From contig JAKQSI010000058.1 of the NCBI GenBank assembly GCA_029570205.1, positions 9,894 through 73,893 of the forward strand: a stretch of DNA of 64,000 nucleotides, read 5' to 3'. The notes under the pieces are model-generated. The model worked only from the letters and a program-made list of their open reading frames with translations, ran no database searches and was not told the origin of the DNA. The position numbers and the translations under genes are program-made. This DNA is from Candidatus Omnitrophota bacterium (GTDB taxonomy: Bacteria; Hinthialibacterota; Hinthialibacteria; Hinthialibacterales; JAKPRU01). Below are positions 54,185 through 59,675 of the stretch, one piece after another; the first letter of the stretch is position 1; each line of letters begins with the position of its first letter.

Positions 54185-56245
54185 TTATAGCACGCGCGCG
54201 CCACTCTTGCACGGTTGCGCAGGCGCCATCAGAGTCAGCCGCTCCCCGTCGTTCGCCGCGAGCAACATACCCTTCGACTCAATTCCTCGAATCTTGGCCG
54301 GTTCGAGATTCGCAACGACAATGATCTGTTTTCCGACCAGGTCCTCCGGAGCGTAATACTGTGCAACTCCGGCAACAATGGTCCGTTCGTCTTTCCCTAT
54401 GCGAATCTTGAGTTTCAGCAACTTCTCGGTTTTCTTCACCCGCTCGGCTTCGAGAACATCCGCTACGCGGAGGTCCAGTGTTGCCACCTCATCGTAGGTT
54501 ACCTGCTGATCCAGGAAAGGCGCAATACCCGAATCTTCTTCTTCCGTCGGTTTAGAGACTTTCAGTTTGTCCAACTGCTTTTGTATTTCCGCATCCTCAA
54601 ACTTGCGAAACAGGATCACCGGCTCACCCAGAGCGTGCCCCGGCTCAAGGACCGGGATTCCGGCCTGGTCCCATTCCTGGTCCTCCACGCGGCCCGGAAG
54701 ATTCAACATGCGCCAGATTTTCTCCGAGGTGAACGGCGTGATCGGATGAAACAGCACCGCCAGCGCGCGGCACACCTCGAGGGAGACGTTCAGCACGGTT
54801 CCACCGCGCTCCGGATTTTCCTTCACCAGTTTCCAGGGCTGCTGTTCCTGCAAATAAAGATTGCCCATGCGAGATGTCGCCAGTGTCAAACTCACCGCCT
54901 CTCGCAAATGAAAATTCTCATAAGATTCGCCCACTGTATTCGGTGCGTTTTTAATCAGATTCAGAATACCATCGTCCTCAGCGCTCAATGCTCCACGAGC
55001 GGGAACTTTGCCGTCAAAATACCGCAGGGTCATCGAGACTACACGGTTCACAAAATTCCCGAACACATCCGCCAGATGGCTGTTGTTGATATTCTGGAAC
55101 TCCTGCCATTTGAAATCGCTGTCCTGATTTTCCGGGGCGTTATAGGCCAGGTAATACCGAAGCGGGTCCGGCTCGAATGCCTCCAGGTATTCCGGCAGCC
55201 ACACCGCCCAGTTTTTGCTGGTGGAAAGTTTGCGCCCTTCCAGATTCATGAATTCAAATGCGGGGATATTGTCGGGAAGAATAAACCCCCCATGGGCCAT
55301 CAGCATCGCCGGAAACATCAGAGCGTGGAAAAAGATATTGTCTTTGCCGATGAAGTGAACCAGTTTCGTGTCCGGTTCACACCAGTATTTTTTCCACAGA
55401 TCCGGGTCTCCCTTTGCGATAGCCCATTCTTTTGTGGAAGAAATGTACCCGATGGGCGCATCGAACCAGACATAAATCACCTTCCCTTCTTCGCCTTCCA
55501 ACGGCACTTTGACACCCCAGCGAAGATCGCGAGTGATACATCGTTCCTGGAGTCCCTCCTCAAATGCCCCCCGGCAGTAGTTTTTGACATTGTCTTTCCA
55601 TTCGGGATGCGTCTTCTGCCATTCGATCAAATCCGGCTGGAGCCTCTTGAGATCGAAGAACCAATGTGTTGTCTCGCGGATTTCCGGCGGTTCTCCCGAC
55701 AGGACAGAAATGGGGTTGATAAGAGAAAGCGGGTCCATCGGGCGGCCGCACTTCTCACACTGATCCCCTTTCGCCTCCTCGCTGCCGCAGTACGGGCAGG
55801 TTCCCTGAACATACCGATCCGCAAGAAACTGCTGGGTCTTGGTGCAATACAGCTGCTTGGTTGTCTTTCGAACCAGGAACCCTTTTTCCAGGACTTTAAG
55901 GAAAAAAGCCTGAGTGGTTTCGTGATGAATCGGCAGGGAGGTTCGGGAATAATTGTCGAACGAGACTCCCAGGCGCTGGAAGCTCTCTTTCATGCCGGCA
56001 TGGTATCGGTCGACGATCTCCTGGGGGGAGACACCTTCCTGTTCGGCGCGGATGGTGATTGCCACGCCATGCTCATCGCTGCCGCAGATATGGATCACGT
56101 CGCGTTTTTTGAGGCGCTGATACCGGACATAGATATCGGAGGGCACATACACCCCGGCGAGATGTCCGAGATGAATGGGGCCGTTTGCGTACGGGAGAGC
56201 GCTGGTCACGAGGAGTCGTTTGAATCGGTCGCTCATATTGTGCAT
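54185..56245 (-). CDS. metG: Methionyl-tRNA synthetase
   Basis: 686 residues. Class I HIGH element HLGH (25-28), KMSKS element KLSTS, zinc knuckle CPYCGSEEAKGDQCEKC, and a C-terminal tRNA-binding (EMAP/Trbp111-like) domain from about residue 585 (DEVATLDLRVADVLEAERV, VVANLEPAKIRGIESKGMLLA). Charges tRNA-Met, whose gene lies just downstream. It starts 31 bases after metK. Start is ambiguous: ATG at 56245 or ATG at 56236; AAAGG upstream fits the second better. Confidence 0.97.
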   Translation of the reverse strand: MHNMSDRFKRLLVTSALPYANGPIHLGHLAGVYVPSDIYVRYQRLKKRDVIHICGSDEHGVAITIRAEQEGVSPQEIVDRYHAGMKESFQRLGVSFDNYSRTSLPIHHETTQAFFLKVLEKGFLVRKTTKQLYCTKTQQFLADRYVQGTCPYCGSEEAKGDQCEKCGRPMDPLSLINPISVLSGEPPEIRETTHWFFDLKRLQPDLIEWQKTHPEWKDNVKNYCRGAFEEGLQERCITRDLRWGVKVPLEGEEGKVIYVWFDAPIGYISSTKEWAIAKGDPDLWKKYWCEPDTKLVHFIGKDNIFFHALMFPAMLMAHGGFILPDNIPAFEFMNLEGRKLSTSKNWAVWLPEYLEAFEPDPLRYYLAYNAPENQDSDFKWQEFQNINNSHLADVFGNFVNRVVSMTLRYFDGKVPARGALSAEDDGILNLIKNAPNTVGESYENFHLREAVSLTLATSRMGNLYLQEQQPWKLVKENPERGGTVLNVSLEVCRALAVLFHPITPFTSEKIWRMLNLPGRVEDQEWDQAGIPVLEPGHALGEPVILFRKFEDAEIQKQLDKLKVSKPTEEEDSGIAPFLDQQVTYDEVATLDLRVADVLEAERVKKTEKLLKLKIRIGKDERTIVAGVAQYYAPEDLVGKQIIVVANLEPAKIRGIESKGMLLAANDGERLTLMAPAQPCKSGARVL

Positions 56246-56276: not shown

Positions 56277-57482
56277 CTACTCGATTCCCGCCGCTTGTTT
56301 CAGGTCATCCACTTTGTCGGTCTTTTCCCAGGTGAAACCGGGTTCTTCCCGTCCGAAATGGCCGTAGGCGGCTGTGGCACGGTAAATGGGCCGACGAAGG
56401 TCCAGGGTTCGAATGATATCGGCAGGACGAAACGAGAAGACTTCCCGGCAGATCCGGGCCAGTTCCATGTCACCGAGTTTACCGGTTCCGAAGGTATTCA
56501 CACCAACCGACATCGGCTCTTTGAGACCGATGGCATAAGCCAAGTGGAATTCGCATTCTGTGGCCAGACCGGCCGCCACGATGTTTTTGGCGACATACCG
56601 GCACATGTAGTTCGCAGAGCGGTCCACTTTCGTCGGGTCTTTCCCCGAGAACGCGCCGCCACCGTGTCGGCCTTTGCCGCCGTAGGTATCGACAATAATT
56701 TTCCGTCCGGTCAGCCCGGCATCTCCTTCGGGGCCGCCGACAAAGAATGTGCTGATCCCGTTCGGATCGCTGGTTCCATTGATAATCAGATCCTCTTGCA
56801 GGTCGAACTTATCCCAGATCTCCGGGCGTTCCGCGATAATCGGCTTAACGACTTTTTCGGTCAGATCGGCTTTGATCTTCTTGAGGGGCAGATCCCTGAT
56901 TTTATGCTGTGCCGCCAGGACCGCGCGAACGATCTTTACGCCTCCGTCGTACGACACGGTCACTTGAGATTTGCCGTCCGGTCCCAGGTATTCGATCTCG
57001 CCGGATTTGCGAACTTCGGCCATTTTCCGGGTCAGTTTGTGAGCTGTATGGATGGGCAGGGGCATCAGTTCCGGCGTTTCAACGCAGGCATAGCCGAACA
57101 TCATGCCCTGATCGCCCGCGCCGGGATCCTCACCGCCGGTTCCGGCGGCAATGTCGGGGGATTGCGGATCGACCGCAATCAAAACTCGGCAGCGGTTGGC
57201 GTCCATCCCGGCCAGTTTCTCCGTATACCCGATATCGCGAAGGACACCACGGATGATCTTTTCATATTCGGGCATGAACGCGCTGGTGATTTCGCCTGTT
57301 ACAACAACCAGGTCTGTGGAAACCAGGGTCTCGCAGGCCACCCGGGCGGCAGTCAGATTGGGACCGGTATTACCGGCCATGATGGCGTCCAGGATCGCGT
57401 CGGAAATCTGGTCGCAGACCTTATCCGGATGCCCTTCGGTGACGGATTCGGAGGCGAATGTATTGGGTGGTAGTTGGCGCAT
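56277..57482 (-). CDS. metK: S-adenosylmethionine synthetase
   Basis: 401 residues. Makes SAM from methionine and ATP. Motifs: [62 protein letters not shown] and the C-terminal [17 protein letters not shown]. Start ATG at 57482 with GGGAG six bases before. Its 5' leader can fold into two mutually competing helices (see leader entry). Followed by metG and tRNA-Met on the same strand, a coherent methionine-use operon. Confidence 0.97.
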
Positions 57483-57555
57483 AGGTTTCTCCCATGTTTG
57501 CCCATGGACTCAGCTGCAATGGACAAACGACGGATGATATGGCAGCTGAAGGCAT
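57483..57555 (-). promoter_or_regulatory. Structured 5' leader of metK, candidate regulatory RNA
   Basis: On the minus strand TCAGCTGC (57542-57549) pairs perfectly with GCAGCTGA (57510-57517), 8 bp. Its loop contains GTTTGTCCAT (57519-57528), which can pair over 10 positions with ATGGGCAAAC (57496-57505) just before the GGGAG ribosome site (57489-57493); one G-U pair. The layout is that of an H-type pseudoknot next to the ribosome site, or two competing hairpins. Loops are 13, 1 and 4 bases; the last is short for crossing an 8-bp stem, so a full pseudoknot may need partial opening. A TTGCAG (57586-57591) with TACTAA (57562-57567) at 18-base spacing could be the promoter. I cannot match it to a named SAM riboswitch class. 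Confidence 0.55.
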
Positions 57556-57902
57556 AGATTTTTAGTATCTCATCTTTTCAAAAGCCTGCAAGAGCGCCCC
57601 AATTCACTAAGGTTACGTTCGAACGGGAATCCGTCCATGGGTATCCATCCTTTTCCGGGGAGCCGGTTCCAATAGACTAACGCTCTATAACTGAATTGAC
57701 TGGACCTGTCGGCATTCTGGAAGGACCAGCGGCAAGATGCTGGTGTTGACTTCAGCCCCTCACCGCATCCCTTTCCCGAAGGAAGAGGCAGAAGAGGGTG
57801 GCACGGGCTTCCAGCCCGTGGTATCACAATACAGAAAAGATACCTGAAAAACATTATCTATTGCGGCGAAATTCCGCTGATCCATAGAAAGGAACAGGGT
57901 CA
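57556..57902. other. Intergenic region between metK and the PEPCK-like gene
   Basis: Contains a degenerate family A repeat (57756-57788) and a family C palindrome (57797-57821, GCACGGGCTTCCAGCCCGTG). Promoters for both divergent transcripts should lie here. No gene seen. Confidence 0.6.
57797..57821. repeat. Dispersed palindromic repeat, family C
   Basis: CACGGGCT and AGCCCGTG are inverted around TCC; same layout as 5289-5310. Confidence 0.75.
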
Positions 57903-59675
57903 ATGTCACCCGTGCATTTTGATCGACATAAAAATGAACTGATTCTTCATACCGATGGTATCATCTGTGACACCCATCGTGAGATTCTGGAAAGCGAGGT
58001 TTTTGAAAGGGTCCTGGCTCTTTATATCGAGACCTTGCGGAGGAGAGACTCACCGATTTTGGATAGTCTACCCATGCTTCTGGGAGGGGCGGAGGAACAG
58101 GCGCGTTTTCTGGAACTTCTTCGGTCTCTAACGGTCAATCCCCTGGAGCAGGCGCTGAAGATCACGCCGATTTTCGAGGATACTCCCGAGAAACGCAAAG
58201 GGCTTCTTCAGTTTATCGAAGGTCTGTATGACTTCTGGCGGAAGTTCCACCGATTCGTGATCTGTCATTCCGAGAGTGGTCCGAACGCACACGATCAGCG
58301 GCCATTTCGCACCTTCAATGCCACCGTGGAGCAGCTCACCCACCTGGTTCGTGGAGTTTACCGGGATGTCTGCGAGAACATCACCGGCGATCATCCCCGC
58401 ATTTACCGGCAAATCCGCTCCGGCTGCAATATGGGGATTATCGCCGTCGCCAAGGACTGGAATCCGCCGAGGCCTTATGGGGAACCGCTGCGGGATATCC
58501 CTTTCATTCGTCAGGTTCTGGTGTATCCGCCGCTGATTCTGGACCCTCCGATGAATACACGCACGGGGCAATTCAGGAAGGTCTCGGAGAACCCCCTGGA
58601 GGGGATAACATGGGAAAAAGAGAAATGGCTGTGTTATCCGGCGCAGGTCGGTCCTCTGGTCATTTTTATCTATTTCCACCAGTGCTTCATCAGCCTCGGT
58701 TGCTGCCTCGCAAACCTGTTCGAGTTGGCGACGGACGAGCAAATCGCGGCGGGGCCGGATGCCATTTATGCCTATGGCGCGCCACCGGAAGTGATGGCGA
58801 AATATGGCGAACTTCCCACCGTATTTTATGAAGATTCCCGGAATGATTTGCTGGTTGCCGCGATCCCCGGTGAGGATCGATTCGGGTATTTCGGATATTT
58901 GAAGAAGATGATTCTTACCCTCCACAATATCCGAATGATGCAGCGGGGCCGAATGCCCTTTCATGGAGCCATGACCCGAATCACCCTGAAGCGGGATATC
59001 GCGGCCAACATTGTCCTGATGGGCGACACGGCAACCGGGAAATCCGAGACCCTGGAGGCGTTTCGATCCCTGGGCGCGGAGTACATCCGTGACATGAGAG
59101 TCATTGCGGATGATATGGGGTCGTTTGAGGTGACACCCGACGGCAACGTGGTGGCCTACGGAACCGAGATCGGCGCGTTTGTTCGTCTGGATGACTTGCA
59201 GCAGGGATATGCGTTCGACCAGATCGACCGGGCGATCATTATGAGTCCGCAGAAGGTGAATGCGCGTGTGGTTTTGCCGGTGACAACCCTGGCGGAGGTT
59301 CTCCACGGATACACGGCAAACTACATCTTCTATGCGAACAATTACGAGGAATTGGACGAGGAGCATCACATTATTGACCGGTTTGAGACCCCCGAAGCAG
59401 CTTTGTGTGTGTTTCGGGAGGGAGCGGCCATGGCCAAAGGAACCACGACCTCCAAAGGCCTGGTGCATAGTTATTTCGCCAATATCTTCGGACCACCTCA
59501 ATATCGTGACCTGCACGACCGGTTGGCCCAAAACACGTTCGAGGCCGCGTTTCGAGCAGGGGTTTTTGTAGGGCAGATTCGGACCCGACTGGGCGTTCCC
59601 GGCTGTGAAACAACAGGGCCTCTCGAAGCCGCAAAAGCCTTGCTGGCCTTGATTTCCAAGCCGATTCAAGCGTGA
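57903..59675 (+). CDS. P-loop protein of the PEPCK/HPr-kinase fold
   Basis: 590 residues. The P-loop is GDTATGKS (374-381) in NIVLMGDTATGKSETLEAFR, followed by the acidic IADDMGSFEV, much as in phosphoenolpyruvate carboxykinase and HPr kinase. The FHGAMTRITLKRD block just before it is also conserved in the group. The N-terminal 340 residues are a helical/beta region with no obvious motif. Proteins of this kind have been called PEPCK-like; a true decarboxylase reaction is unproved. It stands alone, divergent from metK. The ATG at 57903 follows GAAAGGAA. Confidence 0.7.
   Translation: MSPVHFDRHKNELILHTDGIICDTHREILESEVFERVLALYIETLRRRDSPILDSLPMLLGGAEEQARFLELLRSLTVNPLEQALKITPIFEDTPEKRKGLLQFIEGLYDFWRKFHRFVICHSESGPNAHDQRPFRTFNATVEQLTHLVRGVYRDVCENITGDHPRIYRQIRSGCNMGIIAVAKDWNPPRPYGEPLRDIPFIRQVLVYPPLILDPPMNTRTGQFRKVSENPLEGITWEKEKWLCYPAQVGPLVIFIYFHQCFISLGCCLANLFELATDEQIAAGPDAIYAYGAPPEVMAKYGELPTVFYEDSRNDLLVAAIPGEDRFGYFGYLKKMILTLHNIRMMQRGRMPFHGAMTRITLKRDIAANIVLMGDTATGKSETLEAFRSLGAEYIRDMRVIADDMGSFEVTPDGNVVAYGTEIGAFVRLDDLQQGYAFDQIDRAIIMSPQKVNARVVLPVTTLAEVLHGYTANYIFYANNYEELDEEHHIIDRFETPEAALCVFREGAAMAKGTTTSKGLVHSYFANIFGPPQYRDLHDRLAQNTFEAAFRAGVFVGQIRTRLGVPGCETTGPLEAAKALLALISKPIQA

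Follow-up and report, generated by a model that had tools for sequence, protein, structure and literature searches.

The window, meaning the whole stretch of 64,000 nucleotides analysed here, carries on its minus strand the genes for methionine adenosyltransferase (metK) and methionine-tRNA ligase (metG), followed by a tRNA gene with a CAT anticodon, and the annotation confirmed the metK-metG-tRNA(CAU) gene order given in an earlier note on this DNA (Table 1). Directly 5' of metK lies a leader with two helices, S1 (8 bp, perfect) and S2 (10 bp including one G-U in the sequence of the window), which interlock in the arrangement of an H-type pseudoknot; this part of the earlier description was borne out both by the coordinates and by a scan for H-type pairs. 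The last strand was likewise correctly said to stop just short of the ribosome site of metK, with a gap of two bases between the end of S2 and GGGAG and the metK start at 57482. The crossing loop of 4 bases described at the same time was not upheld. The two inner pairs of S2 are not both kept in the related genome G001, only 8 of the 10 pairs being common, and loop 3 is therefore better read as 6 nt. With a conserved S2 of 8 bp and a loop 3 of this length, the objection raised by a short crossing loop is eased.

Table 1. Features of the metK locus and of its leader, in coordinates of the window
Feature	Coordinates	Strand	Sequence	Remarks
metK, methionine adenosyltransferase	56277..57482	minus		TIGR01034, E 7.1e-144; Pfam
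metG, methionine-tRNA ligase	54185..56245	minus		NF001100 (NCBIfam)
tRNA gene, CAT anticodon	54092..54165	minus		after metG
Leader with interlocked helices	57556 to 57483	minus		directly 5' of metK
S1 (P1), 5' strand	57549-57542	minus	UCAGCUGC	invariant in three genomes
S1 (P1), 3' strand	57517-57510	minus	GCAGCUGA	pairs with UCAGCUGC
S2 (P2), 5' strand	57528-57519	minus	GUUUGUCCAU	
S2 5' strand, conserved core	57528-57521	minus	GUUUGUCC	from comparison with relatives
S2 (P2), 3' strand	57505-57496	minus	AUGGGCAAAC	
S2 3' strand, conserved core	57503-57496	minus	GGGCAAAC	GGACAAAC in G001
Loop 1, first part	57536..57541	minus	CAUAUC	possible third strand
Loop 1, anti-Shine-Dalgarno segment	57532..57535	minus	AUCC	invariant; P2a-like
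Loop 1, variable part	57529..57531	minus	GUC	ACU in G001; internal loop from P2a-like arm to S2
Loop 3	57504..57509	minus	GUCCAU	GUCCAC in G001; 6 nt with S2 as conserved 8 bp
Shine-Dalgarno site	57493-57489	minus	GGGAG	GGA at 57490-57492
Alternative 6-bp hairpin	57480..57496	minus	CAUGGG-AGAAA-CCUAUG	spans Shine-Dalgarno site and start codon
Candidate weak promoter	57553..57590	minus	CTTGCAG ... GATACTAAAA	two invariant blocks; putative

Judging from the candidate promoter, transcription would start just before S1, and the leader probably begins close to the 5' end of the transcript; a promoter consensus scan gave no match above threshold. The approximately 130 bases 5' of the leader (57556-57690) are 85-90% conserved in G001, above the level of the metK fourfold sites, and neither a coding pattern nor a stable fold was found in them. 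Three other candidates were rejected, namely an upstream aptamer in the same segment, which folds no better than its shuffles and differently in G001, a leader peptide from the ATG at 57555, which is lost in G001 and G002, and a transcription terminator, none being found and no U-tract following S2. Further upstream, positions 57903-59675 hold a divergent ORF of 590 aa, which is kept in the genus, has no Pfam match and shows a weak, below-cutoff likeness to phosphoenolpyruvate carboxykinase over the P-loop region.

Rarity and conservation of the interlocked helices

Both strands of the window were scanned for H-type pairs with helices of at least 7 bp and bounded loops. The S1/S2 pair ranked first, with the lowest helix energy among the H-type pairs of the 64-kb window (both strands, 128 kb of strand), and only two other places, among the matches listed, had both helices of at least 8 bp. 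When the leader was shuffled with its dinucleotides preserved, a pair of helices each 8 bp or longer arose in 1 of 5000 shuffles, and the helix energy of S1/S2 was reached in 3 of 5000. Restricted to nested folds, the leader had no unusual stability against shuffles (z = -0.12), which is expected if the signal lies in a pseudoknot or in alternative pairing.

The search set comprised 386 genomes, including 14 from the phylum and three from the genus (G000, G001 and G002), and the leader is kept in both other genomes of the genus. G002 is almost identical to the window, and G001 differs from it at 36% of the metK fourfold sites. The stems of G001 contain a single change in 32 positions (U-G to U-A) and the loops seven in 23 (Fisher p = 0.007); in the CAUAUC of loop 1, the relatives keep all except the last base, and G001 has a one-base insertion. 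Together with the layout and the lack of a known riboswitch match, the few changes in the helices of this relative support a regulatory leader of pseudoknot type or a bistable one. No pair has changed on both sides in the three genomes, two of which are near-identical, and the single in-helix change is one-sided, so that strict covariation is not shown. Furthermore, the flanking promoter-like DNA is conserved as well (85-90% identical), and part of the conservation of the leader may therefore have other reasons.

Two covariance models, R1 for S1 and R2 for S2, were run over the 386 genomes. Outside the genus, R2 gave no match and R1 gave three weak ones, none of them at a metK leader, which proved to be coding DNA or to rest on the letters of ribosome sites only. 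Elsewhere in G000 and G002, the best two weak R1 pairs fell inside coding DNA (sialidase-like repeats), and the other weak R1 matches read in these genomes revealed no such leader. The other genomes of the phylum yielded no convincing match to the leader, a pattern search of viral contigs gave none, and a MetK search of genome contigs returned, among the matches listed, distant relatives only. Among the genomes searched, the leader is restricted to the genus, the other 383 having given no leader of this kind. Its S1 motif pair has one copy per genome there; a second copy 5' of another methionine gene, which would point to SAM, was not found.

Relation to known SAM-responsive systems

The leader has two interlocked helices adjoining the ribosome site in the arrangement of an H-type pseudoknot, and the earlier note had compared this layout to SAM-II, SAM-V and SAM/SAH riboswitches while recognising none of their consensus sequences. 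On the latter point the Rfam comparison agreed, since none of these families was convincingly matched to E = 10; cmscan of the leader to this threshold with 4227 families gave no riboswitch match, and a scan of the leader and its G001 counterpart at permissive thresholds gave chance matches only. The likeness of layout stood as far as the interlocked helices beside the ribosome site are concerned, but it extends neither to a family match nor to the placement of the Shine-Dalgarno, which differs from that in SAM/SAH.

SAM-V and the rare translational SAM-II riboswitches (metX) form an H-type pseudoknot with a P2a pairing to the Shine-Dalgarno (PMC6061858). The leader resembles them in its putative H-type pseudoknot, in the same strand order, in the SAM-pathway gene downstream and in a short, predicted P2a-like pairing of the loop-1 side with the Shine-Dalgarno. 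It lacks three features of SAM-II, namely GAUUUGA in loop 1, CUUGC/GCUAAA in P2 and, in loop 3, the A-rich UUAAAcAA, the letters compared being the consensus printed for the RF00521 match in a relative of the same class, G011, and RF00521 had no match in the leader or in G000, G001 or G002. From SAM-V, the leader is set apart by the missing P3 hairpin and by the absence of a covariance-model match. SAM/SAH riboswitches, where the Shine-Dalgarno lies inside the pseudoknot helix (PMC7367207), share with it the layout of a small translational H-type pseudoknot adjoining the ribosome site; in the leader, by contrast, S2 ends at 57496, before the Shine-Dalgarno (57493), which is predicted to pair with a separate segment of loop 1, and the SAM/SAH family of Rfam was not matched. 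On these sequence grounds membership of the leader in SAM-II, SAM-V and SAM/SAH is rejected, and by analogy it may work like SAM-V.

SAM-I (RF00162) was found neither in the leader nor in the genus and had matches in 4 of the 14 genomes of the phylum. SAM-II was matched in one of the 14, G011, where L174:1501-1579 is a clear member (RF00521, 70.5 bits); the family takes its Rfam name from the alphaproteobacteria, whereas G011 belongs to this small phylum. Four sister-family genomes possess a full-length gene for an ArsR-type regulator with a fused methyltransferase-like domain, a name given by eye from the sequence, and in three of them it adjoins metK. In G004, G005 and G008 (L033, L034 and L037) this gene is divergent from metK with an TTGCATATATCCGGAT...CGGATATA dyad between the two, and G003 has the dyad as well, with its copy of the gene on a different contig. 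The protein likely regulates metK in the sister family. None of the three genomes of the genus contained a full-length ArsR-methyltransferase, SAM-I or SAM-II, which leaves a regulatory role for metK available in the genus.

Possible control of metK translation

When S2 is forced, the minimum-energy folds of G000, G001 and G002 alike pair UCC of loop 1 with the Gs of the Shine-Dalgarno. The UCC is invariant and its register with GGA is possible in each of the three, the minimum in G000 and G002 being shifted by one base via a bulge. When S1 is forced, the hairpin CAUGGG-AGAAA-CCUAUG closes the ribosome site and the start codon (approximately -6.1 kcal/mol), and this hairpin is kept in all three as well. 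The S1-forced and S2-forced folds are separated by 0.6-2.8 kcal/mol in the three genomes, and with energies so nearly equal the leader is predicted to be balanced between two states. Control of translation in two states by these folds is plausible, and the anti-Shine-Dalgarno segment of loop 1, absent from the earlier note, suggests a direct route to a translation block.

Our favoured explanation, put forward tentatively and as somewhat short of probable, is a genus-restricted, cis-acting leader of the H-type pseudoknot kind with probable feedback of SAM on the translation of metK. The leader RNA, approximately 75 nt in length with a core of 8 bp in S1 and 8 bp in S2, would fold as a pseudoknot directly 5' of the metK Shine-Dalgarno. 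Formation of S2 would bring the loop-1 UCC onto the GGA of the Shine-Dalgarno and block initiation, whereas S1 alone would leave the site closed only by the weak 6-bp hairpin, which the ribosome could open. SAM would bind the pseudoknot and favour the closed state, upon which translation of metK would fall, and that of metG too if the two genes form one operon. SAM would be the likeliest ligand because the gene is metK, with metG and tRNA(CAU) behind it. Action at the RNA level and the direction of control, like the promoter, the operon and the ligand, are what we infer. The pairing of the Shine-Dalgarno in both nested folds counts against this explanation, as does the one-base shift of the UCC register in G000 and G002.

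The chief rival to the pseudoknot is a pair of competing hairpins, in which S1 and a hairpin of S2 plus the anti-Shine-Dalgarno exclude one another and the translation of metK would be set by a switch between them, whether triggered by a ligand or a protein, by temperature or by folding during transcription. We regard it as unlikely, although the near-equal energies of the nested folds in all three genomes speak for it. When the same H-type scan was applied to 107 other metK leaders, a number of the top-ranking interlocked pairs proved to be expression platforms of SAM-I (identified by cmscan), so that interlocked pairing can also mean exclusive hairpins; in several clostridial metK leaders the interlocked helices adjoin SAM-I and are read as antiterminator and terminator. 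Those platforms share with the leader the interlocked pairs 5' of metK detected by the same scan, but they follow an aptamer, whereas the leader has neither an aptamer match nor a U-tract and is followed by the ribosome site. In our judgement, moreover, the S2 of 8 bp and the loop 3 of 6 nt should make a pseudoknot sterically possible, so that S1 and S2 need not exclude one another.

Chance is a less probable source of the pattern, and we think it quite unlikely that the complementary stretches were kept merely as parts of a short, recently diverged leader made up of promoter and ribosome site. The small number of genomes, the 85-90% identity of the flanks and the two other pairs of at least 8 bp listed in the window would fit such an origin, and against it stand the rarity among shuffles (1 in 5000), the avoidance of the stems by the changes and the position of the leader directly at the metK ribosome site. 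A DNA operator, with two CAGCTG palindromes approximately 32 bp apart and GTTTGTCC/GGRCAAAC bound by a transcription factor just 3' of the promoter, appears improbable. In its favour, CAGCTG is itself palindromic, the spacing is close to three helical turns and the sister family combines a divergent ArsR-methyltransferase gene at metK (three genomes) with an TTGCATATA...CGGATATA dyad. Against it, the paired S1 motif occurs once per genome, unlike a regulon, the repeats are separated by an additional base in G001, interlocked dyads with a segment complementary to the Shine-Dalgarno would be an unusual operator design, and the genus has no full-length counterpart of the sister-family regulator.

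Returning to the pseudoknot with SAM feedback, it is conceivable but doubtful that the leader represents a new class, confined to the genus, of translational pseudoknots that sense SAM; such a class would have no sequence relationship to SAM-II, SAM-V or SAM/SAH and would have come independently to the same layout, including the P2a-like anti-Shine-Dalgarno arm. Narrowly distributed riboswitches are where many undiscovered ones are expected. If it binds SAM, the leader would be one more independent RNA answer to the sensing of a single metabolite, with a very narrow spread, and, if true, SAM-related control in the phylum would be exerted by at least four means: the putative ArsR-methyltransferase regulator, SAM-I, SAM-II and the leader RNA described here.
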